Of a stretch of 64,000 nucleotides of DNA, positions 20,780 to 44,914 are shown piece after piece; the stretch's first letter is position 1; each line of letters starts with the position of its first letter. The stretch spans positions 6,758,001 to 6,822,000 of the forward strand of contig OZ005702.1 of assembly GCA_963930775.1 (NCBI GenBank), in the 5' to 3' direction. The position numbers and the translations under genes are program-made. The notes under the pieces were generated by a model. It saw only the letters and a list, made by a program, of their open reading frames with translations. It searched no databases and was not told the origin of the DNA. Origin of the DNA: Cliona cf. orientalis (taxonomy: Eukaryota; Porifera; Demospongiae; Clionaida; Clionaidae).

Positions 20780-21101
20780 GATAATTCAAAGTTCACTAGA
20801 AAAAGTATTATCACAAATTCACGGTGAACTTGTAACTCGTTAGTACTACTTCATAGATTTGTGCTTACACTGTGAGGATCTCAGCACTACCAAGTTCTCG
20901 AGTCAGCTGAAATGACTCATGCAAGTACTTCCTCTCGCCAGCGACACATTACCGCATTTGTAGTCATCCAACCGCAACACCACCCACGCATGTTTGTATC
21001 GATGACTTCCGGCCGATCGATCTGTTCTGTGGCCAAGCATAACATAGACCTGAGTTCAGGCCAGCCCACTTATCTGCTAGCGCTGTTGCAGCAATTTTTC
21101 C

Positions 21102-21129
21102 GGGGGGGGGGGGGGGGGGGGGGGGGGGG
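21102..21129. repeat. Poly-G run, 28 bp (unit 1)
   Basis: Follows GCAATTTTTCC and precedes TGGCTGCAC, the same context as the run at 23700-23716 in duplication unit 2. The run therefore existed before the duplication and has since changed length. Confidence 0.9.
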
Positions 21130-21783
21130 TGGCTGCACGAATTAAACAGTATCACGTGTCCTAATCACGTATACGTACGTATGCACGTGGCAAGCAGTGA
21201 TCCAGTGTCACTGGCCAGGAAGGTGATATGCCAGGATGATCATCACAACTAGTACTGGGGCTTAGCACTTACTGTTAATTATTACACCTTTGTGGCATGG
21301 AATTTCTATCACTGTAAGTGGCATCATAATTCTGCCTGGGATCCTCTATGAGTTTATTTATAGGAACCACACAATTTCATGCACTCAGTAACAACATTCT
21401 ATGATTTGCAATAGATGTGAGCCAGTAATACTAAAACGTTAAATGCTCGGTATACATGATTATTATTATTATTTCGACTATATATATATATATAGGTGAC
21501 CCGTCACCGTGCTTGGCTGCGCCATGCCAGTTACTGGAGAATCTACTTGAAAGCCTTGTCATCATAGCTACAGCTACAGCTACTGCAACTGAGAATGATA
21601 TCACTTAATGGTAAGAAATGCTTTAATCAATGTATGCAATAGAATGTTATTCAACATGGGTGAGGAATGGAATGATATATAGCATTGCGTGTAGAGTATG
21701 GTAACTGTAATCATGATCATATATAGTGTAATAATAATTATAGATTGGTCTAGCTAGCAGTTGTCAAGTTATTTCATATTGGA

Positions 21784-23064
21784 TTAGTTAGGAGGTCTAT
21801 CCAGCGATATAGAGGCCTCACAAGAGGTATTGGCGACCATGTATGCTGATAGATATGTAGACTGACTGCGTCCATATGGGCAGCATGGATTGGAAGGGTC
21901 ACTGGGGATATTCACCATGATAGTACCTTCTTCGCACATCTTCACAACATCTCCGATATGAGTGCTCGTGCGTCCATAGCTTCCAGGGCTCGAAACAAGG
22001 GAAGAATATGATCGAAGAATGACTGTGTCTGACTCATGTGCATAGTTGCAGTTCTTGTTAATAATGAGTTCGTGCCGGACATATTTTAAGGCATCGGTTG
22101 TGGTAGTTCTCTCAGATTGGAAGAAGACATGGCTTGAGACTTGATAGTAGCCACAGGTAGGGACGGTAAGCTTCCTGGTTTTGTGGCTAAAGAACATTCC
22201 ACCATCGACGAATGCTCCACTCCTATTAGCACACACCCAAGAAGACTGATAGCCAGAAACTGTAAGGGAATATGAAATACAAATGTTGAGTTTGTCACTG
22301 TGATATTACATAATTCCTAATGAGATACATGGGATTGCTATATAGCTATGTTTGATCACTCAGTGACACGCACCTCGGGGAATATTTTGGCTCCCTGGCT
22401 CATCTTTGGTCCATTTGAACCCCCGTCCAGCAATACGAGCAGCTGGGTATGTCTGCAGAATTAAAGATTAATATCAAAATCTTGAAAGCTTCACATAAAT
22501 AAAACTATTAGTTTTGTGTTAGTGCTTGCTCACCTTGTTTGACATTTCAGAATAACAGCCTTGGAGTGGCACATCTATAAATATCAGAAATGAGAATTTA
22601 ATGAAACTGTAGTGTTCATGCTATTTGGGTAGCTGTGCATTACCATTGATAATTTGCCTTTTAGCAACAACAGTCTTCGGTGCAGCTTCCTGTAATAATA
22701 CAATACAAATAGCATGAGTTTGCAGATGAAGTGAGCAAAAGCCTGTGAGATATTAGCTAATGAATTTCATGCGGAGTCTTACATTCATAAATTGCTGATC
22801 ACTCTCCTCCATATTGAATTCAGCTGGGTCGCCAAGATGCTTTCTATCATATTCGGATGTTTGTGTGTGAACCTTCAGAGTTAATAGTCCAACAGCAATA
22901 GCTACTACTGCACAAATTGCAATGATTGCCAGTATCCCAGCAAGAATAATAATCACTTTGTATCTTCTTGGTATAGTGGAGGATGTATCGAGATTGGACT
23001 TTATCGTTCTGCCAGCCTCTAGATTGCTAGCGGAATTGGTGTTTTGAGCTGTCTGCTTATTCAT
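21784..23064 (-). CDS. TNF-superfamily-like type II membrane ligand, copy 1
   Basis: Exons 22783..23064, 22644..22689, 22534..22574, 22374..22452 and 21784..22259 join in frame to about 307 residues. There is no signal peptide. A cytoplasmic N-terminus of about 35 residues is followed by one membrane anchor (VIIILAGILAIIAICAVVAI), a stalk, and a C-terminal TNF homology domain. Diagnostic strands: YPAARIAGRGFKW (TNF family 'PAAHL.G....L.W'), CGYYQVSSHVFFQ (GLYFVYSQVYF), YVRHELIINKN, STHIGDVVKM and STYLSAYMV at the end ('TFFGLYKL'-type last strand). Ligands of this family trimerise and bind Cys-rich receptors. A conserved VAKRQ in the 46-nt second exon may be a convertase site. The ectodomain is unusually Cys-rich (eight Cys). 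About 310 residues is normal for the family. The nearly identical copy is at 25779. Confidence 0.88.
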
Positions 23065-23583
23065 GTCTATTTTAAATATGAAGATTGTGTTCTTGTTAGA
23101 TGCTTTAGATTATTAATTTTCTTGTTCATGTCAATTTTAAATTGAGTGGCACCTTTTATAGCTTTTGACTTCTTGGCCGTGAAAATAACCTACATTAGAT
23201 TTGATTAGGCAGGGGCTCTAACTTGAATGAGCATAGAGCATCCCCTTTGGTTTCACTTGTTTTTCTCATGAACAAAGTGGATCAAACAAGGATGTTTACT
23301 AACTATAGGTGCAGTTTCTAAATAGTGAGTGAAAGGATGTTATATATCCCTTATACTTATCACATTGGCTATTGTTCCCACTGATAGCTAAGTGGTAGAT
23401 GTCAACAAGAAAAACATATACAATTATGCTGGCTCTATGTAGTTAGACACTTTCAGTTATGGTTATATTTTTGGACTGGATATCTACCATTAGGCCGAAT
23501 GAATTACGTATTGTGATCCAAAGCAACTCGGGTAATCTTCAGTGATCAGATTATCACAGATATCTGTTAGCATTGTCACTAAA
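23065..23583. other. 5' flank of TNF-like gene 1
   Basis: About 520 bp, nearly identical to 27073-27592 upstream of copy 2, including CATCCCCTTTGGTTTCACTTG. The promoter was duplicated together with the gene, so similar expression is likely. No exon is seen. Confidence 0.5.
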
Positions 23584-23699
23584 TATCCAACCGCAACACC
23601 ACCCACGCATGTTTGTATCGATGACTTACGGCCGATTGATCTGTCTAAGCAAGGAGTGGCCAAGCAAACTTGCTTATCTGCTGTTACAGCAATTTTTCC

Positions 23700-23716
23700 G
23701 GGGGGGGGGGGGGGGG
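23700..23716. repeat. Poly-G run, 17 bp (unit 2)
   Basis: Counterpart of the 28-bp run at 21102 in unit 1, here shorter, in the same flanks. Confidence 0.9.
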
Positions 23717-24031
23717 AGTGGCTGCACCAATTAAACCGTATCACGTGTCCTATAACGCCCATGGTGGTAGCTACAGCAAGCAATGATGCCAGGCTCAGCG
23801 ACTGTCTCTGAATGCCGGGAAGGTGATATGCCAGGATGATCATCACAACTGGGGCTTACCCCTATTTGTTAATTATTACACCTTTGTGGCATAAAATTTC
23901 TATCACTGTAAGTGGCATCATAATTCTGCCTGGGATCCTCTATGAGTTTATTTATAGAAACCACACAATTTCATGCACTCAGTAACAACATTCTATGATT
24001 TGCAATAGGTGTGAGCCAGTAATATTAAAAC

Positions 24032-25457
24032 ATGTTGTTTTTTTTTATATATGATATATTTATGCATAAATGCAAAGGATACAATGAATAGTGCAAAAAA
24101 AAAAAATACTAGTACAAAGCATGTACCCATTATAACTTAAAGTAGTTAGTGTAATTATAATAATAATAGCTATTAGTTAGTGACATGATGCAGCAAGTGA
24201 TATTTGAACGAGGCAGTTGAGGAACTTGAAGTTATGTGAGGTGGGAGAGAGTTCCAAGATGAAATTACACGGGGGAAGAAAGAGTTTTGGAGCAAATTTG
24301 TACGAGACTGAGGTACCACGAACGTGTTGGTTGACTGTGAGCGTGTGAAATATGTTGTGGTATAGGGTACAAGGGGAGCATTTGGAAAGACACAGTCTTC
24401 ATTGACGATTTTATAGAGAAGGCCAAGGCCAAGACAGTTTCTCCGTGTCTTAAGCTCAGGCAGGTTACACTTTTCAATGAGGTCAAGGTATGGTACATCC
24501 CACTGCTTTGTGCATACTCTGAGAGCAAATTTTTGCACGTTTTCTAGTTTACATATGTCCTTGACAAGTTCAGGACTCCACACAGGAGCAGCATATTCCA
24601 AGTGCGGTCTTACTATGGTTGTATAGAGTTTAGTTAGAACTTCAGGGTTTGACCATCAGTAAAATTGTCGATATAGCATCCCAATTATCTTTCTAGTTTT
24701 GGCTACAATTTTGTCAATGTGTGGCGTCCATGAAAGATTGGCAGAAAGTACAACTCCCAGGTATTTGTATTCAAATACTCTTTCAAGTGGTTGACCATAG
24801 AGGTGCAGCATAGGCATCTGGTTCCCCTTCGTTCTGCTTCTCAAGATTAGCATAACTTTACATTTGCAGAATTCAAGCGGAGATCGTTTTCAGCCACCCA
24901 CCTTCCAATGTTATCAATCCCTTGTTGGACATTAATGAAATCTAGTGGGCAGTTGATCACTCTGTACAATAGCATGTCATCTGCATAGAGAGTAGTGTGA
25001 TTTCCATCTAGAGCAGTGGACTGGATGGAGTCATTGATGTACATTAAGAAAAGGAGAGGGCCAAGAACTGACCCTTGGGGAACTCCTGAGGTAGCATTAC
25101 ATGCAGATGATTTTTCTCCATTTAGGACAACATATTGTTTCCTGTTCATCAGGTATGAACATATCCATCTTAGGATGTACGGGTCCAGATCAAAAATCCT
25201 TAGTTTATCTAGAAGGGGCCTATGGGGTACTGAGTCGAAGGCCTTCTGTAAATCAAAAAATACTGCACATACTTTACTGCCTTGATCAAGGGCTCTACGC
25301 CAGTTGTAGGTGACGTCAGCAAGGGCTGCTACCGTGGACTTTTTTGGGCTGGAAGCCCCACTGCTGCAGTGCAATAGGGTGATGTTCGTTCAGGTGATTG
25401 AAAATTAGGCTGTGAATGTGTTTCTCTAGCATTTTGCTCACGATTGGAAGCAGAGAA
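24032..25457 (-). mobile_element. 5'-truncated non-LTR retrotransposon (reverse transcriptase remnant)
   Basis: Reading leftward from 25457 the frames encode a reverse transcriptase starting at TEISLLPIVSKMLEKHIHS. Next come FFDLQKAFDSVPH, GVPQGSVLGPLLFLMYINDS and the YADD box (YADDMLLY), then the C-terminal tail HLEYAAPVW-type region (MEYAAPVWSPEL) and SFFPRVISSWNSLPP with stop at 24173. Frame changes occur near 25345 (in an A6 run) and 24850, and an in-frame stop near 24653, so it is dead. The 3' end carries a poly-A-like tract (T run at 24033-24043). Endonuclease and the 5' half are missing. The clade looks like Jockey/CR1/L2-type but cannot be fixed. Compared with unit 1, it replaces a 9-bp site (GTTAAATGC, near 21440). 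Confidence 0.9.
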
Positions 25458-25778
25458 ATCTCGGTATACATGATCATAATATTTCGACTATATATATATA
25501 GGTGACCTGTCACCATGCTTGGCTGCGCCATACCAATTACTGGAGAATCTACTTGAAAGGTTGTCATCATAGCTACAGCTACTGCAACTGAGAATGATAT
25601 CACTTAATGGTAAGTAATGCTTTAATCAATGTATGCAATAGAATGTTATTCAATATGGGTGAGGAATGGAATGATATAATATAGCATTGCGTGCAGAGTA
25701 TGGTAACTGTAATCATGATCATATATAGTGTAATATAGATTGGTCTAGCTAGCAGTTGTCAAGTTATTTCATATCGGA

Positions 25779-27072
25779 TTAGTTAGGAGGTCTATCCAGC
25801 GATATAGAGGCCTCACAAGAGGTATTGGCGACCATGTATGCTGATAGATATGTAGACTGACTGCGTCCATATGGGCAGCATGGATTGGAAGGGTCACTGG
25901 GGATATTCACCATGATAGTACCTTCTTCGCACATCTTCACAACATCTCCGATATGAGTGCTCGTGCGTCCATAGCTTCCAGGGCTCGAAACAAGGGAAGA
26001 ATATGATCGAAGAACGACTGTGTCTGACTCGTGTGCATAGTTGCAGTTCTTGTTAATAATGAGTTCGTGACGGACATATTTTAAGGCATCGATTGTGGTA
26101 GTTCTCTCAGATTGGAAGAAGACATGGCTTGAGACTTGATAGTAGCCACAGGTAGGGACGCTAAGCTTCCTGGTTTTGTGGCTAAAGAACATTCCACCAT
26201 CGACAAATGCTCCACTTCTGTTAGCACACACCCAAGAAGATTGATAGCCAGAAACTGTAAGAGAATATGAAACACAAGTGTTGGATAACTAGAGTTTGGC
26301 ACTGTGATATTACGTAATTCCTTTTGAAGGAGGTACATGCATGTATATGATTGCTATGCTTGATCATTACACGCACCTCGGGGAATATTTTGGCTCCCTG
26401 GCTCATCTTTGGTCCATTTGAAGCCCCGTCCAGCAATACGAGCAGCTGGGTATGTCTGCAAAATTAAAATATTGATCTATTGAAAGCTTCATATACTTAG
26501 AACTATTAGTTTTGTGATAGTACTTGCTCACCTTATTTGACTTTTCAGAATAACAGCCTTGGAGTGGTACATCTATAAGTATCAGAAAATGAGAATTTAA
26601 TGAAACTGTAGTGTTCATGCTATTTGGGAAGCTGTGCATTACCATTGATAGTTTGCCTTTTAGCAATAACAGTCTTCGGTGCAGCTTCCTGTAATAATAC
26701 AATACAAGTAGCATGAGTTTGCAGATGAAGTGAGCAACAGCCTGTGATATATTATTAGCTAATGAATTTCATGCGAAGTCTTACGTTCATAACTAGCTGA
26801 TCATTTTCCTCCATATTGAATTCAGCTGGGTCACCAAGATGCTTTCTATCATATTCGGATGTTTGTGACACTGTGTGAATCTTCAGAATTAATAGTCCAA
26901 CAGCAATCGCTACTATTGCACAAATCGCAATGATTGCCAGTACCCCAGCAAGAATAATAATCACTTTATATCTTCTTGGTATAGTGGAGGATGTATCGAG
27001 ATTGGACTTTGTCGTTCTACCAGCCTCTAGATTGCTTGCTGAATCAGTGTTTTGAGCTGCCTGCTTATTCAT
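25779..27072 (-). CDS. TNF-superfamily-like type II membrane ligand, copy 2
   Basis: Exons 26785..27072, 26643..26688, 26532..26572, 26377..26455 and 25779..26254 give about 309 residues. It is nearly identical to copy 1; exon 5 differs at only a few residues. Exon 1 is 6 nt longer, inserting two residues after the membrane anchor (HTVSQTSEY against HTQTSEY). Same domain order: short cytoplasmic tail, anchor VIIILAGVLAIIAICAIVAI, stalk with VAKRQ, then TNF homology domain (YPAARIAG, CGYYQVSSHVFFQ, STHIGDVVKM, STYLSAYMV). Reading frame and splice sites are intact, so both copies are probably functional. The LINE at 24032-25457 lies about 320 bp beyond its stop and could affect its 3' end but not its coding sequence. 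Confidence 0.88.
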
Positions 27073-27592
27073 GTCTATTTTAAATATGGAGATTGTGTTC
27101 TTGTTAGATGCTTTAGATTATTAGTTTTCTTGTTCATGTCAGTTTTAAATTGAGTGGCACCTTTATAGCTTTTGATTTCTTGGCTGTGAAAATAACCTAC
27201 ATTAGATTTGATTAGGCAGGGGCTCTAACTTGAATGAGCATAGAGCATCCCCTTTGGTTTCACTTGTTTTTCTCAGGAACAAAGTGGATCAAACAAGGAT
27301 GTTTACTAACTATAGGTGCAGTTTTCTAAACAGTGAGTGAAAGGATGTTATATATCCCTTATACTTATCACATTGGCTATTGTTCCCACTGATAATTTAA
27401 GTGGTAGATGTCAACAAGCAAAACACATAAAATTATGCTGGCTCTATGTAGTTAGACACTTTCAGTTATGGTTATATTTTTGGACTGGATATCCACCATT
27501 AGGCCGAATGAATTACGTATTGTGATCCAAAGCAACTCGGGTAATCTTCGGGGATCAGATTATCACAGCTATCCGTTAGCATTGTCACTAAA

Positions 27593-28307
27593 CAAAGCCT
27601 ATATAGTGTTTATGCTGTATGTGCGTGACGCAATACAAGTCTTAGAGAGGTTGTGGATTGAAGGATCAATTATCTGAGGGATTGTTTCGGGTAACTTCAA
27701 ATACGTATGGGAAATTTAAATCTTTAAGTGGACCAATATTTCTGACAGTTAATTACTTCCCCCACACCGCCACTGCCAACCAATGAAATTTAAGCTTCTT
27801 CCCCACCCACTTCTCCTCATGACTCTGCACAATTACAGCCACTGGGGGCTTGCGGGTTCTCAGTTATTCCCCTCCTATAACACTATTATAGTAGTATAAT
27901 AATATGTAGTACATCCTTTTGTTTCTTTACATGCTCTTGTGACGGATATTATAATCGGATCTGCTCAAAATTATATGAATGCATATCAGTTAGTAGCTAA
28001 TGTATCTTATGACCGATGCCAAGAAGTAGTTGAAGACATCGTGCATGCGATCGAGGGTTTAAATTAGTACGATTACAAGACTGTAATATTGCTTATAGCT
28101 AGTCTAAGAGTGAGCTCGCATATGCAGGTACAGTAGACGGCTATGAACCTACAGCCACAATCAGATCATATCTAAGACTTGTTCATTTATTATGTTGAAA
28201 AAAACTTTATGCATGTGCATAGAATGGTATGAACATAATATTATTACCATGGATTAGAAAAAAAAAGTATAATAAGATTAGTCATTGTTCATTTTAACAG
28301 TTGTTAA
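27593..28307. other. Intergenic between TNF-like genes 2 and 3
   Basis: About 0.7 kb outside the duplication. It holds AT-rich sequence and a C-rich patch near 27760-27810, and no supported exon. It is part of the 3' flank of TNF-like gene 3. Confidence 0.4.
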
Positions 28308-29568
28308 TTAGGGAGGAGTGTTCGTTGATATAGAGGCCTCACAAGAGGTATTGGTGACCATGTACGCCGATAGATATGTAGACTGACTGCGTCCATATGG
28401 GCAGCATGGATTGGACTCCTTTGGAATATTCACCATAATAGTACCATACTTGCACATCTTGACGACATCTCCGATATGAGTACTCGTGCGTCCATAGCCT
28501 GTAGAGGTCGAAATAAGGGAAGAATATGATCGAAGAACGACTATGTCTGACTCATGTGCGTAGTCGCAGTTCTTGTTGATGATAACTTCATGGCGGACAT
28601 ATCTTGGAGCATTGGATGAGTCAGCTCCGTCAGATTGGAAGTAGACTTGGCTTGAGATTTGATAGTAGCCACAGGTAGGAACAGTGAGCCTTTTTTCCTT
28701 GAGGCTAAAGTGCATTCCACCATCGACAAATGCTCCACTCTGGTTGGCACACACCCAAACTGTCTGGTAGCCAGGTTCTATAATAATATCGGTATCAGAT
28801 TCAAAAGAGTTTAAAAAGGGTACCAATAATATTATTATTTAGCTTGTTTGCTATTAGCAAATTGACCTATTCGAGTATCTTTATTCCCTAGCTCATCTGT
28901 AGTCCACTTAAAGCCCTTTCCTGCAATTCGAGCAGCTGGATATGTCTGCATAGAAAAGTAATATAACTACATTTCGTGATCAATGTTCAATGATGCTTAC
29001 CTCACTTGACTTTTCGGACCAGCAGCCTGATTGACCTGATGTTAGAAGCATTATTAAATTTTATTAATGAAACTAGCTATAACACTATTATGATAATGGC
29101 ATTACAATTATGGCCATGTACCTGTGCTGGTCTGTCTTTTAGCCACAGTTCTGAAGTCAGCATCCTAAATAAATAATCATGATAGTATGAGGTGTGGGTA
29201 AAGTATGCATGCTTAAGCTTGGTCTAGCAAACTGTTACATGTACAGTAGCTACTACTAAGTGTAATACTAGCTATGTGCTTACATCCATAAGCTGCTGGC
29301 TTTCCTCCATTTCAATATCTAGTAGATCCTCCTCCTCGTAGTTTAGGCCATAATTTTCTGACAGTTGTTCCGTGTGAACCTTTTTAAGTGATTGTGACGT
29401 TCCAACAGCAACAGCTACCACTGTGCAAACGGCAACGGTAACGATTACACCAGCTATAATTAGAACCAGTTTGGATTTTCTTGGAGTTGAAAAATTGGAC
29501 TTTGTTGCACAGCCAGCTTCCAGTAGATTGCCTGCTGAATCAGCATTGTTAATGGTCTGCCTGTTCAT
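28308..29568 (-). CDS. TNF-superfamily-like type II membrane ligand, copy 3 (diverged)
   Basis: Exons 29284..29568, 29122..29164, 29001..29035, 28867..28945 and 28308..28777 join to about 303 residues with the same phases as copies 1 and 2. Anchor LVLIIAGVIVTVAVCTVVAV follows a cytoplasmic tail of about 33 residues. The stalk is acidic (YEEEDLLDIEMEE). TNF homology strands are YPAARIAGKGFKW, CGYYQISSQVYFQ (closer to the family consensus than copies 1/2), STHIGDVVKM and STYLSAYMV. Exon 2 again carries VAKRQ, here preceded by Arg (RTVAKRQ), a better furin-like site. The final exon is the most conserved part; the N-terminal half has diverged. It predates the copy 1/2 duplication. Confidence 0.87.
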
Positions 29569-31074: not shown

Positions 31075-34023
31075 TTAGTTCAAAACTGAGTCACGATATC
31101 GTACATACCCTTTATCATAGGTATCAGATTCATCCTTAATCATATCTGTTTCCATTTGAAACAAATGCAGGGCCCTCTCTGCCTTATTACAGTATTTCTT
31201 GAGCTTCCATGAAATCAGATTCCATATGATTATAGCACAAAACGTAAGAAATGCTATCCCAATAGAGAAAGAAAGTAGAATTTCCTGTTTATCACTTTCT
31301 TGCTTGAGATGCAGCGTTCCAGCCGTTAAGAGAATAAGATTAACGTAGAAAGAACTTTCCATTAATGTTGTGGCATTTCTCTTATAGACCCTCATAAAAT
31401 TAAGATAGCAGAGCATTAATGCAATGATCAAACACAACATTAGCAAGCTTAAGGTGGGATAAATACTTAAAAGAAGAGAAGATATCAAAAGTAGTGTCCC
31501 TTGAGCCAGCAATAGCACTCCAAACCAGTAGTGGTGATTATCTTTGAATGGTGCAAAGTAAGCGTCATAAACAGGTTTGAATTTCGCTATCAGTTTCAGT
31601 GGACGATAATGGTCTATCCTTCTCAGCCACTGCATGGAAAACAGGATAAGAGTGTAGGGTATCCACAGAAAAATCAAGCAAGCTAAAACAAGAAGTAGGA
31701 GGAAAATGTGGGGATATTTTCCATACTCATAATTACCATCAAGTGTCCATACTATTGATACAGAGGAAGATTTAATTTCCGAAGTATAAATCTTAATTTG
31801 CGTGAGCTGTAGACCTGCTATGATAATACAAAGAAGCTTAGTAAAGGATAAGGCAAGAAGTGTAGCTAATGTTGGAACAGATCGATTTCCAAATAGATTA
31901 GAGAGCTTAGAAGAGAATTTTAAACCGATGAAAAATAGAGCTGCAGTATACAAAGGGAAGATAAACTGCAGCCATGTCTTACTGAACATGTCCAGACCTT
32001 GGTAGAAACAGGCTTCAATCCCAAAGTCAAGATTTAGCCAGGCAATAAATGGCTTAAGCACAAGCAGTGCTTTGTGTTTCTCAGTTGATGGGAAAAACAT
32101 GCTTTGGTAAGCCCAGACAACGTTTGCATAAAAGATCAATCCATTAACTGTGCCCTGAGTGACAGTGAGGTTGAGAGTACTGATCACGAACACTAGTAGT
32201 GGCCCAATAGCAGCAAAAAATATTAATAAGGCTAAGTTGTTGCTATTTGGGCAATGGATGCAGTGAGAAGAGCCAATAGCCAGGCTGTAGTTATCTTTGC
32301 ATCTACCACACAGTTTTCCTGCACGGTTGAAATTACACTGGGTGTCAGGATTACGTTGTATATCAATATTTATTTTTATGTTTTTACAATAACCAAACGG
32401 ACATCTTCTAGTTGTGACGATTCTGTTCCCTGCAATTGTATTAATGGCGTTAATCCAACTTGTAGAATTCCATGATACGTAACCATTTCCATTCTTCAGT
32501 GTACAGCGGATGTTCTCAAAATCAGGGTGGCAGTCACACCGCAGTGGATTTTCCAGAAGGACAAACCCAGGAGGACAAGGAAGAAAGGTAATATTCAACA
32601 TCACTGGTGTATTGAGTAATACTTGATAGATAACTCTATCGGTTTTATACTTTTCAATGGCACTAATAACTGTTTGTGTAGATGTTGTGAAAGCAGCTTT
32701 CTGTTTTGTATTGGTGATAAGGTAAACATTTACAGTACTGGAGTATTTGCTTCCATAGAAACAGTATGTCAAATTAGTACATACTCTGTTTTCAGTTATC
32801 ATTTGTTCTGTAATTACCTCAGAAAAATGATGACACTGTTGAAGGATAGACCTATTGAAGTGGGAATAAACAGTTCCAACTGTAGTTCCAAAGTCCCCAC
32901 CTACAATAACAATGGGGATCATAAAATGTTCTCCAGGGTAAACATGTACTTCATAAAATATGTGCTCAATGTCTGCACACTGTGGTTCATGGCTGCTGCA
33001 CAGGCATACTCGAGCTGGTTTACTAGAAATAGCAGAGAGAGTATTTAGTGATGGCTGAAATTTAAAATTTGCACGAGGAGAATTAGAAATTTCATAGCTT
33101 GACCAACCACAGGTTGAAATTTTGTCGCACACTTCACTTCGAAATGCTGCTGTACAACTGCTTTTCAAAGATGCCCCGTAAATGTGATCACCTCCCTTTT
33201 CAGCAGTATTGTCAATAAAGTTTAAACTATAATTTGAGTCAACTTGTTCAATACTATAGAAGCAGAATGAATTATATCCCTCACTGCTAACATAGAGATC
33301 AGCATTATCTACAAATATTGCTCCACCAAATTCTGAGGCACTATTGTTTAGAAACAATACATTGGCATTTTCCACAATTTTTATTCTAGATCCTCGCAAA
33401 TTCAAAGCTCCACCTGTTTCTCCAGTATTGTTAGAAAATTCCACAATTCCTGCAAATATTATGAAGCTCGAATATGAGACAACAGCAGAATGAGTACAAT
33501 TTTTGATCTCACAGTCTTTTACAAAAAGACTAACGTCAGTCAATATCACTAGAGAGTTTATTAACGTACAATTTTCAACAATTATGGTTGTGCGGGTGTA
33601 TACGTTACTGGTTCCGTATACATTAAGGGAGGACTCTTCTGCTGTAAAATTATTTAAATTAGTGTTTTTGATGTCTGATAGGATCAAGTGGATCCGTTTC
33701 AACACTACATTTTCCTTGTCCCCATTGCCCGACAATATTAAACTATTTTGGTTTGCAATGTGTAGGTGACCATCTGTCGTATTGCTAGGAGTATGATAAC
33801 CCTCTTCCAAGATAGCTGCAATACTGATATTTTTTTTGAAATTATGCTGAATACAAAGGATATTATCCAAGCTTGCTCGTATCAGACAATCAGTAGGATC
33901 ACTTAAATGACCTTCAATCCCACTTTTGATACAAATACCCTTATCACTAGACGAGCAGATTTCAAAGATCATCAACAATAGTGAAAAAAGGATAGTGACC
34001 AGCTTCTTGTCTTTTTTGTCCAT
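31075..34023 (-). CDS. Intronless beta-helix / multi-span membrane protein, paralogue 1
   Basis: One open frame of 982 residues: N-terminal hydrophobic signal (LVTILFSLLLMIFEIC), then about 570 extracellular residues with many N-glycosylation sites. Residues about 80-290 contain beta-helix-type repeats of the polymorphic-membrane-protein kind: FSNNTGETGGAL (196-207), FLNNSASEFGGAIF (224-237) and FIDNTAEKGGDHI. A Cys-rich module follows (PPGFVLLENPLRCDCHPDF; RAGKLCGRCKDNYSLAIGSS, about 567-586). From about 597 there are roughly nine hydrophobic spans and a charged tail. The last 400 residues are the part most conserved with the paralogue at 36255; the membrane bundle also resembles the protein at 3002. 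I know of no assigned function. A surface receptor is plausible from the architecture alone, and no enzymatic motif is seen. Confidence 0.85.
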   Translation of the reverse strand: MDKKDKKLVTILFSLLLMIFEICSSSDKGICIKSGIEGHLSDPTDCLIRASLDNILCIQHNFKKNISIAAILEEGYHTPSNTTDGHLHIANQNSLILSGNGDKENVVLKRIHLILSDIKNTNLNNFTAEESSLNVYGTSNVYTRTTIIVENCTLINSLVILTDVSLFVKDCEIKNCTHSAVVSYSSFIIFAGIVEFSNNTGETGGALNLRGSRIKIVENANVLFLNNSASEFGGAIFVDNADLYVSSEGYNSFCFYSIEQVDSNYSLNFIDNTAEKGGDHIYGASLKSSCTAAFRSEVCDKISTCGWSSYEISNSPRANFKFQPSLNTLSAISSKPARVCLCSSHEPQCADIEHIFYEVHVYPGEHFMIPIVIVGGDFGTTVGTVYSHFNRSILQQCHHFSEVITEQMITENRVCTNLTYCFYGSKYSSTVNVYLITNTKQKAAFTTSTQTVISAIEKYKTDRVIYQVLLNTPVMLNITFLPCPPGFVLLENPLRCDCHPDFENIRCTLKNGNGYVSWNSTSWINAINTIAGNRIVTTRRCPFGYCKNIKINIDIQRNPDTQCNFNRAGKLCGRCKDNYSLAIGSSHCIHCPNSNNLALLIFFAAIGPLLVFVISTLNLTVTQGTVNGLIFYANVVWAYQSMFFPSTEKHKALLVLKPFIAWLNLDFGIEACFYQGLDMFSKTWLQFIFPLYTAALFFIGLKFSSKLSNLFGNRSVPTLATLLALSFTKLLCIIIAGLQLTQIKIYTSEIKSSSVSIVWTLDGNYEYGKYPHIFLLLLVLACLIFLWIPYTLILFSMQWLRRIDHYRPLKLIAKFKPVYDAYFAPFKDNHHYWFGVLLLAQGTLLLISSLLLSIYPTLSLLMLCLIIALMLCYLNFMRVYKRNATTLMESSFYVNLILLTAGTLHLKQESDKQEILLSFSIGIAFLTFCAIIIWNLISWKLKKYCNKAERALHLFQMETDMIKDESDTYDKGYVRYRDSVLN

Positions 34024-34834
34024 GTTCTGTGGTTACAGATGATGTATGATAGCTAAGTTACTACTATTATTATACGTCGAGTAAACACAATGTGATCACT
34101 TGGTACAGCGTAATTTGCTACTAATTTGATGCAGCAGTATCTGATTCATTCATTGCTTTTATAGGATAGCTACATACACAAAATAATATAGCTAATCATG
34201 CAGGTTACCGGTGTAATGAAGTTGCTTATTATTGTAGCATTTTATAGTCTATAGCTTATCCTTTTGTGAAAGTGCGATCAATGTAAACGTCTATACAGAC
34301 ATCTGTATAGACCTTTCTTTTGTACAATCAATAATGATTACTCAGTCTGTTGACTTGACTGCTGAATGTATTTAACTGTAATCTTATTTTTATGAAAAGT
34401 GTGATCAATATAAATATCTATTCAGATGTCCTTAATAGCCTATAATATTATTATTATCATCAACTAATAGGTGTGCAACAGCATCAAGCATATATACAAT
34501 CAGCATAAAATGATGCTTGTTTTGATACAATGAGTATTGACCTATTAACTTGAGTGCTGAATATCCTCAGATTACTTTCAGTGTCCTTTTATTATTATAC
34601 CCAAAGGACTATTTATTGACCAATCCTTTTGTGATGTGTGTGTCACTTGGATTGATTCACTGTCACCAGTGTTATCAAAAACTATGTAGCTATAATAATA
34701 TTATTCTATCGACATAGGAGTCTGTGTATGTACATTATAAAATTAATATCTAGAGTACACAGTACTTATAGTGTATGCATGTGCAAATGTGCTATGGATA
34801 ATCTTTAATTTGCACTGGTTATTCGCATGGTTTA
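34024..34834. other. 5' flank of the 31075 gene
   Basis: About 0.8 kb, AT-rich. A stretch reading 'TGTGAAAGTGCGATCAATGTAAA...CTATACAGACATCTG' recurs in diverged form 120 bp later (near 34272 and 34392), a weak tandem repeat. Nothing else is seen. Confidence 0.4.
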
Positions 34835-36254: not shown

Positions 36255-39200
36255 TTAGTTCAAAATTGAATCACGATATCGTACATACCCTTTATCATAG
36301 GTATCAGATTCATCCTTAATCATATCAATGCTTTCCATTTGAAACAAATGCGGGGTTCTCTCTGCCTTATTGCAGCATTTCTTGAACATCCATGAAATCA
36401 GATTCCATATGATTATAGCACAAAACGTAAGAAATGCTATCCCAATAGAGAAGGAAAGCAGAATTTCCTGTTTATTATTTTCTTGCTCGAGATATAGCGT
36501 TCCGGCCGTTAAGAGAATGAGGTTTATGTAGAAAGAACTTTCCATTAATGTTGTGGCATTTCTCTTATAGACCCTCATAAAATTAAGATAGTAGAGCATT
36601 AATGCAACGATCAAACACAACATTAGCAAGCTTAAGATGGGACAGACACTTAATAAAAGAGAAGATATCAATAGTAGCGTCCCTTGAGCAATTAATAGCA
36701 CCCCAAACCAGTAGTGGTGATTATCTTTGAATGGTGCAAAGTAAGCATCGTAAACAGGCTTGAATTTCGCTATCAGTTTCAGTGGACGATAATGGTCTAT
36801 CCTTCTTAGCCACTGCATGGAAAACAGGATAAGAGTGTAGGGTATCCACAGAAAAATCAAGCAAGCCAGAGCTGCAAACAAGAGAAAGCCGTGGGGATAT
36901 TTACCATATTTAAGGTTGCCGTCTAGTGCCCATACCAGAGTCATGGAGGTAGACTTCAATGATGCAGAAGTATATGTCTTTATTTGTGCTAACTGAAGAC
37001 CAGCAATGATTGTGCGAAGGAGCTTGGTGAGTGATAAAGCAAGAAGTGTAGCTAATGTTGGCACAGATCGATTTCCAAATAGCTTAGAGAACCTAGAAGA
37101 AAATCTTAAACCAATGAAAAATAGAGCCACGGTATACATAGGAAAGATAAACTGCAGCCATGTCTTACTGAACATATCTAAGTCTCGATAGAAACAGGAT
37201 TTAATCCCAAAGTCAAGATTTAGCCAGGCAATAAATGGTTTGAATAAATACTTAAATAGTGCATAAGATTCCTCCATAGTTGATGGAATATATACATTTT
37301 GGTAAGCCCATACAATATTCGCATAAAAGATTAGTCCATTTACTGTACCTTGTGTGACCGTGAGATTAAAAACACTAATAATCAATACTAGAAGTGGCCC
37401 AAAGGCAGCAAAGAATATTAATAATGCTAACCTGTTATTATTTGGGCAGGAGATGCAGTGAGAAGAGCCAATGGTCAGGCTGTAGTTATCCCGGCACTCA
37501 CCGCATAATATTCCTGCACGATTGAAGGCACACTGAGCATCAGGATTGCTTTGTAGATTGATATCTGTCTTTTCATTTTCGCAATAGCTGAAAGGACATC
37601 GCTTATTTGTGATTATTTCATTTTTCTCATTTGTATTAATCCAACGTCTAGAAGTCCATGAAATAAAACCTTTTCCATTTCTCAGTATACAGCTAAAGTT
37701 CTCAAGTTTAAAGTGATCATGACAGTCACACCGCAGTGGATTTTTCTTCAGGACAAACCCAGGAGGACAAGGAAGAAAGGTAATGTTCAGTACAATTGGA
37801 GTGTAGAGTAATACTTGCTTAATATCTCCATTAGTGATATCATAAGTTTCAATAGCTTCTTTGATTCTTTGCCTAAAATTGGGCTCTGGTTTTCTAAACT
37901 CATCATTCGCGCTAAGATACATTATTAGTGTACTAACACTTTTGTTGCTGTAAAAGCAAAATGTCAAGTTTGTACACATATTGTTTTGGGTGATCACTTG
38001 TTGACGCATGGTGTGGTTATCACCATGTGAATTGATACATTGTTGAAAACTATCAATTTGATAGTGTGCACGAACTATTCCTATGGTAGCACCAAAATCT
38101 CCACCTACAATCACCATAGGGATGTTGAAGTATTCACCCGGATAAACTGAAATTTCACGAAATGTTTGATTTAAGTCTGCACATCGTGGTTGGTAATTGC
38201 CATTGCAAAGACATACTCGCGTTGGGCTACTGGACACAGGAGAGAGAGACTGAGTGTTCAGTCGGGAATGGAATGAAAAACCACCACGAGTCCGAATGTC
38301 ATTACTTGTCCAGCTGCAATTGGATTCAGAAATACCACCACAGGAGTCATTTCGAAATGCTACTGTACAGCTGTTGTTCAAAGTCGCTCCATAAATATGA
38401 TCACCTCCCATTTCAGCAAAATTTTCAATAAAGTTAAGACTGTAATCAGACTCAACTTGCTCAATACTATAGAAACAGAATGAATTATATCCCTCACTGC
38501 TAACATAATAATCAGCATTGTCTATGAATATTGCTCCTCCATATATTGTTGCACTGTTGTTCAGAAAAGTAATATTGGTGTTTTTGGTAACTTTAATTCT
38601 TGATCCTCGCAAACTTAAAGCCCCACCATATTCTCCAACATTATCAGAGAATATCACAACTCCTTTCAATACCATAAAACTTGAGTAAGAGACAATAGCT
38701 GATTTCTTGCACCTTTTGAATTCACAGTCCTTTATCAAAAGAACCACATCAGTTAGTATTATGTTGGAATTATCGACTGTACAATTTGTAATAGTTATGA
38801 TCGAACGACAAATAGGATTGCTAGCTCCATAGACGTTGATAGATGATTGTTCAGCTGTGAAGTTACTGAAATTTGTTTTCTTGACTTCTGAAAGGACTAC
38901 ACTGATTCCTGTCAATATTACATTTTCTTTGGAACTATTGCCAAGTAGTAATACGGAATCATGCCTTGCAATGTGTAACTTTCCCTCGGTGGTTGATCCT
39001 GGAGCATGATGCCCTTGTTGGATTATCACACTAATGTTGCCATAAGACGGAAAATAATGTTGGAAGCACAGAATGTCATCCAGTGACATGCAAAAGTATA
39101 ACTCCTGTTGAAATGACTGGTTCTGAATATTTTTGCTATAATCAATATTATTGGTAAGATTCGTAACTATATTACCAGCTTTTGTACAGATCATGTTGCT

Positions 39201-39356
39201 AACTGAAGGACTGGTTTCCGTGAGTACCATCAAAGCCAATAATAATGTGATGACATTAAATTTTGTGTCCTGGATTAGTATCTTCTGCATAGCCATGATG
39301 AAAGTCTCTGTCAAAAATTGATTTAGCTCCGCTTCCAGTCTTATGCATGCGGGCAT
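36255..39356 (-). CDS. Intronless beta-helix / multi-span membrane protein, paralogue 2
   Basis: One open frame of up to 1033 residues. The first ATG (39356) precedes a non-hydrophobic stretch; ATGs at codons 21 and 23 (39296, 39290) sit directly before the signal-like VITLLLALMVL, so the true start is probably there. Layout equals paralogue 1: beta-helix-type repeats (FSDNVGEYGGALSL, FLNNSATIYGGAIF, FIENFAEMGGDHI), Cys-rich module (RAGILCGECRDNYSLTIGSS), about nine membrane spans and the same C-terminus (DTYDKGYVRYRDS). The last 400 residues are almost identical to paralogue 1, while the ectodomain has clearly diverged, as expected if the outside faces variable partners. The 3' flank (GGCTAAGTTTAGTTCAAAA) is also shared, pointing to tandem duplication of the whole gene. 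Confidence 0.85.
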   Translation of the reverse strand: MPACIRLEAELNQFLTETFIMAMQKILIQDTKFNVITLLLALMVLTETSPSVSNMICTKAGNIVTNLTNNIDYSKNIQNQSFQQELYFCMSLDDILCFQHYFPSYGNISVIIQQGHHAPGSTTEGKLHIARHDSVLLLGNSSKENVILTGISVVLSEVKKTNFSNFTAEQSSINVYGASNPICRSIITITNCTVDNSNIILTDVVLLIKDCEFKRCKKSAIVSYSSFMVLKGVVIFSDNVGEYGGALSLRGSRIKVTKNTNITFLNNSATIYGGAIFIDNADYYVSSEGYNSFCFYSIEQVESDYSLNFIENFAEMGGDHIYGATLNNSCTVAFRNDSCGGISESNCSWTSNDIRTRGGFSFHSRLNTQSLSPVSSSPTRVCLCNGNYQPRCADLNQTFREISVYPGEYFNIPMVIVGGDFGATIGIVRAHYQIDSFQQCINSHGDNHTMRQQVITQNNMCTNLTFCFYSNKSVSTLIMYLSANDEFRKPEPNFRQRIKEAIETYDITNGDIKQVLLYTPIVLNITFLPCPPGFVLKKNPLRCDCHDHFKLENFSCILRNGKGFISWTSRRWINTNEKNEIITNKRCPFSYCENEKTDINLQSNPDAQCAFNRAGILCGECRDNYSLTIGSSHCISCPNNNRLALLIFFAAFGPLLVLIISVFNLTVTQGTVNGLIFYANIVWAYQNVYIPSTMEESYALFKYLFKPFIAWLNLDFGIKSCFYRDLDMFSKTWLQFIFPMYTVALFFIGLRFSSRFSKLFGNRSVPTLATLLALSLTKLLRTIIAGLQLAQIKTYTSASLKSTSMTLVWALDGNLKYGKYPHGFLLFAALACLIFLWIPYTLILFSMQWLRRIDHYRPLKLIAKFKPVYDAYFAPFKDNHHYWFGVLLIAQGTLLLISSLLLSVCPILSLLMLCLIVALMLYYLNFMRVYKRNATTLMESSFYINLILLTAGTLYLEQENNKQEILLSFSIGIAFLTFCAIIIWNLISWMFKKCCNKAERTPHLFQMESIDMIKDESDTYDKGYVRYRDSILN

Positions 39357-40076
39357 GCAGGCATGTTTTATAGTTGCTACTTATTATTTGTTTGTGAAAC
39401 ATGTTCCTAATCACAAAGAGATGCATAATAATTTCACAGTACTGTATCTATGCCGCTCAAATGGTGTTATTTGTAAGCACTAGCTGCATAGTAATTGTTG
39501 CTGTCTAAAAGGCTGAGTGTAGAAGCTACTTACAAAAACATAACACTTACTATTGCTTATTTGCATAAACAAGTGCATAATACCTGATCGATGATGCTGA
39601 TTGCAGCCCCAATTAGTCAACACTGTCATGTCTGATTCAATAGGTGTTTGAAAATCAGTTGTATATGTATTAGGTCTAGCTAACTATCACTTTCAATGTA
39701 TCAGATAAAAAGAATAGTAGTGTAGCAATAACACACCTCTAAAGAAGCACACGATGAGTGATATGTGGTTTGCTCCTGGAATGGTTTGCATGAAGATTAA
39801 TAACATGACATTGTACCATCCTTATACAATTTACACTGAAAATCATAATAATACATACATACATTTCACGATTGAAAATATATAGAAAATTGTTTACATA
39901 AGGTTTCAAATTAATAGCTTGTCAATGATGATCTAAACAGAGCTCATAGAGCATGAAGTTTATGTTATTCACAGTAACTATAATTATTATGCATAGTCAT
40001 TGACAATATACTACTGTAGTACCAGGAGTCTGTAAGCCCTTGATACGAAGCAATATGACAATAGAAATGTGAATAA
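39357..40076. other. Intergenic between beta-helix gene 2 and the TRAF-like gene
   Basis: 0.7 kb, AT-rich, with a palindromic GCATGC cluster at 39346-39364 just upstream of the longest frame. No exon supported. Confidence 0.4.
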
Positions 40077-41423
40077 TTATATGTTCTCCATACTAACTTG
40101 AAATTTAAGGGAATCATTCTGTATAAAATTCGGTAGGGATTCATGAGAAATGAATTTGGCTATTCCAAAAGTGTTTGCAGACCTAATTCCTGTCGTCAAC
40201 CTATTCCCCGCACTGGACGTGTCACTGAAATGAACGAATGATACTTTATCGTCCTTGCTATGGTCTTTATTCACCAGCTTGATCTGTAGGCTTTCTTTAA
40301 ATGGCCACTTCAGTTGGTCATCGAACTCTCCCTTCATCAAACTAAATGACGCCGATACGTATTGACCCTTTCCCTCACCCAGACCATTGGCACAAATTGA
40401 CAAGCATAGCTTATATCCCATTGGTCCAGTGTAGAATGGCGGAGAGTACCATATGGTGCCGTCTTTCTTCTTCTGCTTGAAGTTTGTCATTGTGAAGGTG
40501 ATTGCGCATGGTAAGGGTGTGCTAATGAGTTGCATTTGTTGTTCAAGGTCTATCTTTTCAACCTGCTGCCTCAGTTGTTTGTTCTCTTGTTCTAATTTCA
40601 CAATTCTTAACAAAGCTCTTCTGTGACTTTCCTTCAGATCTTCATGCTTTGCTGTGAGTTCTTCATGGCTTTGCGTAAGCTGTTTGTGACTTGCTGCCTG
40701 TAACAAAACGTGGTGCACTATACTGTCTACATAGTGTGCTTCCATCTCTTTACGTGCTAGCCTTTCCTTACAGCCAATGTGTTCAAAGTCACAGTCAATG
40801 ATAGTTAAGGGGCAGTCAGAAGCGATGTGGTTTACAAGGTTCTGACGTTGAAGTGTTTCACCGCACTTGTTTGTGCATAGTACTGGATAGCAATCACAGA
40901 CTGGCCAGTGATCGTAGACTACACTATCGTATCTTGAACCAAAATTTTGGCAGTATTCACAGCTGAAAGGTCGTTTGAGACAGACATTATCTTGGTGATT
41001 TTCAATATCAGACCGTTGGAAGACTTCAGAACAGTGATTGCATTTAATCTGAGAAATTTTACATCCCTGAAGCTGATTTCTCTGTGTTGGGTTTAAGTTG
41101 AGGTGGTTATCAAGTTCTCTTAGCTCTCCCACCCACTCACAGCCTTGCTTGGTGTTGGGGCATTGTACCTTGAAGTCATAGAGAGACTTCTTTAGTCTCT
41201 TATCTTCAAACTTATTGAATTGCTTATTACAACAGGGGCACGGTTTGTTGTCCCTCTCGACACAGTCAATGCACTGTTTACAAAAGGCATATCCACAGCA
41301 AGTTGTCTGGTAAGGATCTCGAAGGATCTGTAAGCAAACTGGACATTCACTTTGTAATGACCTTGGTGGCTCTTCTACAAACTGACACTCGAATCCACTT
41401 TTATGTTCTTCAATCAGAGACAT
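40077..41423 (-). CDS. TRAF-like protein: RING, TRAF zinc fingers, coiled coil, MATH
   Basis: Intronless, 448 residues. RING at about 27-65 (C27-P-V-C30, CCGYAFCKQC, C62-P-C-C65). TRAF-type zinc fingers occupy about 85-230 (CPNTKQGCEWVGELRELDNH; CEYCQNFG; CDFEHIGCKERLARKEMEAH). A coiled coil at about 245-300 (RIVKLEQENKQLRQQVEKI) and a MATH/TRAF-C domain to the end (FTMTNFKQKKKDGTIWYSPP, PMGYKLCLSICANG) follow. TRAFs bind TNF-receptor or IL-1/Toll adaptor tails and use the RING as a ubiquitin ligase to signal towards NF-kB and MAPK. The canonical RING histidine (CGH.FC) is Tyr here (CGYAFC), which may weaken zinc binding or ligase activity. Length is a little under vertebrate TRAF2/6. Start ATG at 41423 precedes the RING by a usual short leader. 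Confidence 0.93.
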   Translation of the reverse strand: MSLIEEHKSGFECQFVEEPPRSLQSECPVCLQILRDPYQTTCCGYAFCKQCIDCVERDNKPCPCCNKQFNKFEDKRLKKSLYDFKVQCPNTKQGCEWVGELRELDNHLNLNPTQRNQLQGCKISQIKCNHCSEVFQRSDIENHQDNVCLKRPFSCEYCQNFGSRYDSVVYDHWPVCDCYPVLCTNKCGETLQRQNLVNHIASDCPLTIIDCDFEHIGCKERLARKEMEAHYVDSIVHHVLLQAASHKQLTQSHEELTAKHEDLKESHRRALLRIVKLEQENKQLRQQVEKIDLEQQMQLISTPLPCAITFTMTNFKQKKKDGTIWYSPPFYTGPMGYKLCLSICANGLGEGKGQYVSASFSLMKGEFDDQLKWPFKESLQIKLVNKDHSKDDKVSFVHFSDTSSAGNRLTTGIRSANTFGIAKFISHESLPNFIQNDSLKFQVSMENI

Positions 41424-42762
41424 GATTCAATATAACCATACATATGGTAGCTGTATTCTCTTTAATAGTAGCTACGTATAAAGCCCTTAGGCTAGTTCCG
41501 GTGGTTGACTCGTGTCTATCATGTGACCATGTAAGGTTAAACAACCTTCATTGTTTACTATGATAATAGTACATGGATAAAATACCTGAGGTTCCAGCCC
41601 ACTCACCACAATAATATTGTAGCTCATTCCCAGATCCCATTCTGTGGGTCTGGGCCACAACTCATTGATGACTCTACAATATGAATCACTTGAAAGTATG
41701 ATGATAGAATACTTCAGCATGTTGAAGAGCAGCTGTAGCTATCAATAAAGAAACATGAAAGTGCACTAAAATTGCTTGTATCTGAACTAATGTTACTGAA
41801 GCCTTAATTCACTGTACTATATGAATCAAATATATACTTGCAGATACAGAGTAAAGCACTAGTTGTCATGTTAAGTTATTCCTATAGAGCTTCACTAACA
41901 TGAAGTCCTAATTTTATACTCGGTTTTCATTCCCATGGAGGCCAACTTTCAATGTTAGTCAATGTATATAGCCATATGGAAAGTAAGGTGGCATTTATGA
42001 ACAGATTTCATCTGACACTATATTATACTGGTGCATCAGTATTCTTTATTACAATATATATTTCTCTAGATCTTACCTATTGCTTTGAGGATGACAGCAC
42101 TGACTGGAAGTATATTGTATATAGAATGATGATAAGTGAAAAGAGATAAATTGATGGTAATTTCAGTTGAAAGGCATAGTATGGATGTAGACTCGGAGGA
42201 TAGATTTCAATGGAATACAGGGGAAGGCTATCATCATTTTGTATTCATATATAAGCTTCTTTGTAGCTTCATAACTTCTATGCTCCATAGCATTACTAAG
42301 CTAGTATTAAAACATGAAATCACTATTCTCAAAGTTGGATTATCTAGGGACCAAATGATGTTGTCAAACATGGTCCAAATTTCGATTCTGTGAGAGAAGA
42401 AATGATTATAATCTCATGTTAATCAGGCTTGGGAATAATATTATGGTGCTTCAACTATACAAAGAAAATTTTGGAGTTTGTGAAAACAAGCAAATGCCAT
42501 GAGACAACTTATTTTGCATCAGAGCTAGCTAATTGAAAACAATCGTCGAATGACATAAACCTTTCTTCAAGGCTTGAATAATAACATACAGTAGTGTATA
42601 TTAATTGCCTATCACCTTCAGAAGTAGCAAATGTGTTGCATAAGGGGCTATTTACCCTCATGGCCAAAGCTAAAATCCTGAAACATACTATTAGAGTATA
42701 ATTATATATCCCTCATCCATATATTTTTTTACTGATAATTTTTTGCTAAATATTTGTATTAA
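41424..42762. other. Intergenic, nothing recognised
   Basis: 1.3 kb between the TRAF-like and transporter genes. Short open frames at 41952-42149 and 42136-42393 have no recognisable domain and unsupported composition. Confidence 0.4.
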
Positions 42763-44433: not shown

Positions 44434-44914
44434 GTATCACAACTCCTAGTAGTCAGTATATACGTCTAGCCAACTCATAAATTTTGATTGCTTACACATT
44501 TACCTCAGGAACTCTCAGATAGGCACATAAAAATTAGTAGGTCTTGCCCTGTTGATTGCTATTATAGTTTCTCGTGATAGTGAAAGGAAACAATTCCGCG
44601 GCTAGCCAAATCAGAGAATTATCAAACTTCAAAGCGGTGTATACAAATTGTCAATAGGTTTCAATCATTTTCAGTAACACCTTGTATTGGGCATAATTAT
44701 GAGCAGTAATTTCCCCTAATAGTTACTGGAGATCGCCAGCAAACATATTTCAACATAGTGCATATTCCATACAACATTTGTATACAGGTGTGTTCATTAC
44801 TTGTATTCCCACTATAATAATATAATATAGCAGTACAATTAATGTGGAGTCCGAGTCTGACCACTGGGCCAGTACCTATGAAGTCAGCTGTACGATGGAG
44901 CAGTATCATAGAGT
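44434..44914. other. 5' flank of the transporter gene
   Basis: About 0.5 kb of AT-rich sequence up to the CpG-rich repeat. No exon or clear core promoter element is seen. Confidence 0.4.

Follow-up and report, generated by a model that had tools for sequence, protein, structure and literature searches.

TNF ligands are known already from animals including sponges (as cited in PMC7674686 and PMC9820676). Both papers, in the excerpts consulted here, credit the demosponge Chondrosia reniformis with a TNF as well as a putative receptor on the authority of Pozzolini 2016, and one of them describes the intracellular region of this receptor as unlike its counterpart in higher animals (PMC9820676). 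Excerpts of further reports describe two cysteine-rich domain (CRD) proteins in Amphimedon, neither with a death domain (PMC4979521), up to 14 TNF superfamily genes in tunicates that arose through frequent independent tandem duplications (PMC12843592), and furin cleavage of the ligand EDA (PMC13367198). None of the papers listed in a literature search, judged on their titles and abstract openings, describes a sponge TNF cluster. Here we report a cluster of three TNF-like genes, g1, g2 and g3 (copies 1, 2 and 3), in a 64,000-nucleotide stretch of genomic DNA (the window; C14:6758001-6822000, on contig C14 of a 216.8 Mb genome in 149 contigs). They are very probably functional genes for TNF-superfamily ligands in a siliceous demosponge, and they belong to a family of at least seven.

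The three genes are located on the minus strand of the window between positions 21784 and 29568, and each is intact and composed of five exons. Gene g1 (21784-23064) has exons at 22783-23064, 22644-22689, 22534-22574, 22374-22452 and 21784-22259; g2 (25779-27072) at 26785-27072, 26643-26688, 26532-26572, 26377-26455 and 25779-26254; and g3 (28308-29568) at 29284-29568, 29122-29164, 29001-29035, 28867-28945 and 28308-28777. All four introns in each gene are of the GT-AG type, the exon start phases (0,0,1,0,1) are identical in the three, and the coding sequences are open throughout, specifying predicted proteins of 307, 309 and 303 residues for g1, g2 and g3, respectively. The models, which were built from the sequence and from comparison of seven paralogues, confirm the three five-exon genes with matching phases that had been proposed in an initial, sequence-only reading of the window. 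Motifs named in that reading, PAARIAG (exon 4), THIGDVVKM and TYLSAYMV, are present in all three proteins; a further motif, GYYQVSSHVFFQ, is present in copies 1 and 2, but copy 3 reads GYYQISSQVYFQ.

Four additional paralogues that match g1-g3 in exon number and phases are located on contig C18: c1 (C18:533189-534600, plus strand), c2 (C18:536484-537711, plus), c3 (C18:538643-540328, plus) and c4 (C18:540621-542211, minus). A protein search of the genome with the g3 domain recovered these seven genes together with one weak match on C7 (E 0.035) containing two internal stops, and a genome scan with the Pfam TNF model produced six matches, missing c4. The ligand family recognized in the sequence-only reading is thus present, but it is larger than the three copies proposed, with seven genes in two clusters. 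Candidate relatives in the viral_contigs (53 pattern matches) and genome_contigs (12 pattern matches) sets gave no match confirmed by tblastn.

The TNF homology domain is encoded by exons 4 and 5 in each window gene (21784-22452 in g1, 25779-26455 in g2, and 28308-28945 in g3, all on the minus strand); in g1, exon 4 carries PAARIAG..W and exon 5 the remainder. A profile search of the three translations against Pfam TNF (PF00229), the check that had been named for this identity, placed all of them above the 23-bit cut-off, with E-values of 3.7e-7 for g1 (last-exon frame), 3.7e-6 for g2 and 1.7e-9 for g3. The domains of all seven paralogues matched the same model at E<=10 (best 9.5e-10), and no other Pfam family was listed for them at that threshold. 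In the reverse direction, a profile of the seven sequences searched against the PDB returned 58 distinct matches at E<=1, every one a TNF ligand, with TRAIL at the top (E 2.6e-5), and g3 alone matched lymphotoxin-alpha/TNF-beta (E 2.0e-4). The part of g3 encoded by exon 5 was modelled as an all-beta fold (best of five models; mean predicted local distance difference test score, pLDDT, 48.1; predicted template modelling score 0.44), and TNF ligands account for 40 of the 50 matches listed for this model by Foldseek and 49 of the 50 listed by VIA-align. Profile searches run both ways therefore support the proposed TNF-ligand identity, to which the fold model adds weak support.

Topology was judged by hydropathy, using the Kyte-Doolittle mean over 21 residues. 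In each of g1-g3 basic residues precede a single strong hydrophobic segment, in agreement with the type II membrane topology that had been suggested. Exon 1 would accordingly encode a cytosolic tail, a signal anchor and the start of the stalk, with the anchor at residues 38-58 in both g1 and g2 (3.29, next best segment 0.36) and at residues 35-55 in g3 (3.0, next best 0.57). Type II hydropathy is found in six of the seven paralogues. The exception is c2, in which a signal-peptide-like start replaces the anchor and cytosolic tail; this suggests that its product may be directly secreted.

Exon 2 encodes a dibasic site in the stalk, which in the seven-paralogue alignment reads VAKR|Q in g1 and g3 and IAKR|Q in g2. 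All seven genes have a basic site in this exon (KR in six of them): on C18 it is ISKR in c1, RAKR in c2 and c3, and RAAR in c4, the last lying a few residues ahead of the lysine in the alignment. TNF ligands released by furin include EDA, BAFF, APRIL and TWEAK, which contain R-x-x-R or R-x-K-R in the stalk; the R-x-x-R pattern occurs here only in c2-c4. The basic site in the stalk is a possible convertase cleavage site. Six cysteines in the region encoded by exons 4 and 5 are invariant across the seven genes, with one more in the stalk, and a C-C-P-Y-G stretch near the C-terminus is exact in five of the seven, reading GCPYG in c2 and CCPTG in c4.

In phylogenetic trees the three C14 genes group together with support values of 93/97 (domain only) and 91/96 (full length), and within this group copies 1 and 2 pair as sisters (89/88 and 99/99, respectively); c2 and c4 are on long branches, and the deeper branching order is weakly resolved. 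Copy 3 had been taken as the oldest member of the trio. Because copy 3 is the sister of the ancestor of copies 1 and 2, however, both sides are equally old, and what stands of that claim is that the split between copies 1 and 2 alone is recent. As far as the sequences tell, gene number has grown by tandem duplication, with copies 1 and 2 the latest pair to arise. The ratio of nonsynonymous to synonymous divergence (dN/dS) for copies 1 and 2 is 0.24 (19 synonymous and 16 nonsynonymous differences; Fisher p 3.6e-5), that for copies 1 and 3 is 0.34, and values across five full-length comparisons range from 0.17 to 0.40. By these substitution counts copies 1 and 2 are under purifying selection. 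The TNF domain shows less synonymous divergence than the N-terminal part, both between g1 and g3 (41.5/125.7 versus 46.6/75.7 sites; p 1.3e-4 on rounded counts) and between g1 and g2 (7/126.5 versus 12/83.5 sites; p 0.047), which could reflect gene conversion or poor alignment of the N-terminal part.

Comparison of the region with itself by blastn delimits a tandem duplication, with unit 1 (20966-23583) carrying g1 and unit 2 (23585-27592) carrying g2. Segment 21441-23583 is 92.7% identical to 25456-27592, and 20966-21437 is 80.3% identical to 23585-24031; among the exons, identity between g1 and g2 is 98.7% for exon 4, 98.1% for exon 5 and 92.9% for exon 1. Unit 2 is broken by a retrotransposon fragment on the minus strand (24032-25455) that has no counterpart in unit 1, with a reverse transcriptase frame at 24847-25389 (RVT_1, E 2.7e-24) and separate adjoining frames at 24656-24889 and 24173-24655. 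Because the fragment is found only in the second unit, it was most likely inserted after the duplication. Long G runs are located at matching places in both units (21102-21129 and 23700-23716).

The host was evaluated by a genome search with a pattern for the silicatein active site. Four hits were obtained, with none in the reversed control; three hits on C12 contain serine (CGASYAF), and one on C19 contains cysteine. The three C12 translations are cathepsin-L-like, Pfam Peptidase_C1 was matched by two segments of locus L037, and the best PDB match of L038 was Silicatein alpha (7.7e-27), ahead of cathepsin L (2.5e-22). The sponge host supposed in the sequence-only reading is supported by these three silicatein-like genes, in which serine replaces the catalytic cysteine, and because of them the host is likely to be a siliceous demosponge.

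Candidate receptors were sought by a six-frame scan of the genome with the Pfam TNFR_c6 model, and eight of its 16 matches were inspected (L009, L010, L011, L012, L014, L016, L017 and L018). One of them, L011 (C2:499202, E 0.08), is an uninterrupted frame that provides a TNFR-like receptor candidate; by eye it begins with a signal-like stretch, followed by a single CRD, additional cysteine-rich sequence, a transmembrane segment and a short tail ending in MTSV. The nearest PDB match of its CRD by phmmer is EDAR (E 0.009), and a search for a second copy of L011 found none. The CRD proteins of Amphimedon, without death domains in the excerpt of PMC4979521, are in agreement in kind with L011. Because receptors whose genes are split by introns escape a six-frame search, the single candidate is no measure of receptor scarcity. 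Among the other loci, L009, L012 and L014, which lie within long frames of cysteine-rich repeat on C12 and C7, and L017, a large cysteine-rich frame, were rejected because none has the look of a TNF receptor, and L010 was rejected for a stop inside the match and printed frames without CRD-like sequence. The open frames at L009 (C12, near 4171166) and L014 (C7, near 4859375) extend over 8551 and 9355 residues, and the parts read are cysteine-rich repeat. A short CRD-like frame occurs at C4:7762037 (L016), C4:8079689 (L018) and C4:8114420; that of L016 and L018, with much sequence in common, may belong to a dispersed repeat.

Domain scans of the genome also gave at least 150 matches each for zf-TRAF (504 candidates, of which 150 were scored) and for the death domain (1292 candidates, of which 150 were scored). 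Caspase-family matches number 43 when fragments are counted, and Rel-homology exon matches number three, all at a single C19 locus and one of them with internal stops. In the mechanism that we envisage, the ligands would be anchored in the plasma membrane and expose the TNF domain on the outer side, would assemble as trimers, and might be released by cutting in the stalk; they would cluster a CRD receptor without a death domain, from which the signal would pass via TRAF adaptors to NF-kB or kinases. A bolder picture is one in which as many as seven cysteine-rich ligands, encoded in two clusters, are served by very few CRD receptors, all of them lacking a death domain, and are coupled to a very large TRAF set. 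We offer this picture tentatively and consider it rather unlikely to hold in full. If true, it would mean either that TRAF-coupled TNF signalling came first and death-domain receptors later, or that the ligands use receptors outside the TNFR family.

Several observations weigh against the reading of g1-g3 as functional TNF ligand genes. The fold model is of low confidence, the other four models reached pLDDT values of 28-32, and Wnt/Wntless complexes occupy the top three Foldseek places among 10 non-TNF matches of the 50 listed. By eye, only one of the three TNF-alpha trimer-core tyrosines appears to be kept in g1-g3 (in TYLSAYMV). In the alignment the furin pattern R-x-x-R is missing from g1-g3, which have V/I-A-K-R instead. 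Synonymous divergence is close to saturation in two cross-cluster comparisons (dS 1.9 and 2.6). On the receptor side, none of the 16 TNFR_c6 matches reached the Pfam cut-off, and hmmscan of L011 gave no TNFR match at E<=10, as well as no death-domain match at that threshold. A different identity that was considered for g1-g3 is that of C1q-domain-like proteins, which have the jelly-roll trimer fold in common with TNF ligands and would act as lectin-like or matrix proteins. C1q-family chains do occur among the structural matches (three of Cbln4 and one of C1QTNF5 among the 50 Foldseek matches listed; zebrafish C1qA at rank 27 of the 50 VIA-align matches listed), but in the sequence searches Pfam TNF was matched by all seven domains with no C1q listed at E<=10, and the PDB matches of the family profile were exclusively TNF ligands. 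The type II topology without collagen repeats also argues against C1q. A scan of the genome with the C1q model gave no match at E<=0.01, a result of little weight as control genomes also gave none. The C1q-like identity is retained only as a very improbable rival to the TNF-ligand identity.

A second rival, assembly duplication, concerns the number of genes: copies 1 and 2 could be one gene doubled by misassembly, with haplotypes placed side by side, leaving a true cluster of two. The 92.7% identity of their units over 2.1 kb would fit this explanation, as would the near flanks (93.8% and 96.7%) and introns 1 and 2 (95.7% and 97.1%). Introns 3 and 4, however, are only 84.2% and 82.6% identical and are the only introns in sharp contrast with their adjoining exons; the far 3' flank is 89.1% identical with 53 gap columns, synonymous divergence between the copies is 0.096, and the 1.4-kb insert is confined to one unit. 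Heterozygosity of the sponge aside, this divergence is large for two alleles, and we regard misassembly as quite unlikely. A third rival accepts the TNF fold but pairs the ligands with receptors outside the TNFR family, such as adhesion or allorecognition molecules. The ratio of seven ligand genes to one convincing CRD receptor, itself below the Pfam cut-off, and the cysteine-rich TNF domain speak for it. Against it are the many TRAF matches in the genome, the putative TNFR of another sponge (Pozzolini 2016, as cited in PMC7674686), and the nature of CRDs, whose small size and frequent interruption by introns make them easy to miss in six frames, with half of the 16 weak matches inspected. Receptors of this other kind are thus judged unlikely, and three ligand genes acting through a CRD receptor is the reading that we prefer.

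Other genes are located beyond g3 in the window. A single-frame TRAF-like gene (40077-41426, minus strand), 10.5 kb from g3, has TRAF zinc fingers and a MATH domain above cut-off and a RING domain below it. We do not claim a functional link between this gene and the TNF cluster: from the 150 to 504 zf-TRAF matches in 216.8 Mb, 0.02-0.07 would be expected per 32 kb, and the comparison is post hoc. Because the genome contains at least 150 zf-TRAF matches, the proximity may be due to chance; among the 150 listed, only one is on C18, about 500 kb from the C18 cluster. Two related uninterrupted frames (31075-34032 and 36255-39380, both minus strand; 985 and 1041 residues) with several hydrophobic stretches look like a duplicated receptor-like gene, and the first contains a Chlamydia_PMP repeat match. 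A frame at 42763-44436 (minus strand) encodes a POT-family transporter (PTR2, E 9.7e-18).

The sequence-only reading had suggested that, in a sponge, the cluster would bear on the origin of TNF signalling. The sponge host is supported, but the cluster has less to say on that origin than hoped, as Chondrosia had already been reported to have a TNF and a putative receptor, and the origin of the family is unmoved by our results, since prior work as cited in PMC7674686 already includes sponges. The present contribution is a set of seven genes in two clusters with a common exon plan, together with a receptor candidate. A TNF ligand gene set, with its exon structure and paralogues, is thereby available on multi-megabase contigs of a probable demosponge, and TNF signalling before death-domain receptors is opened to simple binding and expression studies.

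Among known systems, the Chondrosia TNF is likewise a demosponge TNF superfamily member accompanied by a putative receptor. The title of that report names one ligand, compared with seven here in two clusters with a common exon plan, the two systems being compared by description only. Human TRAIL (TNFSF10) and lymphotoxin-alpha are the best PDB sequence matches, though the similarity is weak; unlike them, the sponge family has six invariant domain cysteines, one stalk cysteine and the C-C-P-Y-G stretch. The tunicate TNF superfamily is likewise expanded in tandem, but it is a chordate family and a separate expansion. The EDA/EDAR pathway, common to cnidarians and vertebrates, likewise has a type II ligand whose stalk carries a basic site, and EDAR is the nearest PDB match of the L011 CRD; the sponge system differs in having no collagen stalk, no R-x-x-R in g1-g3 and no death domain in L011 (E<=10).

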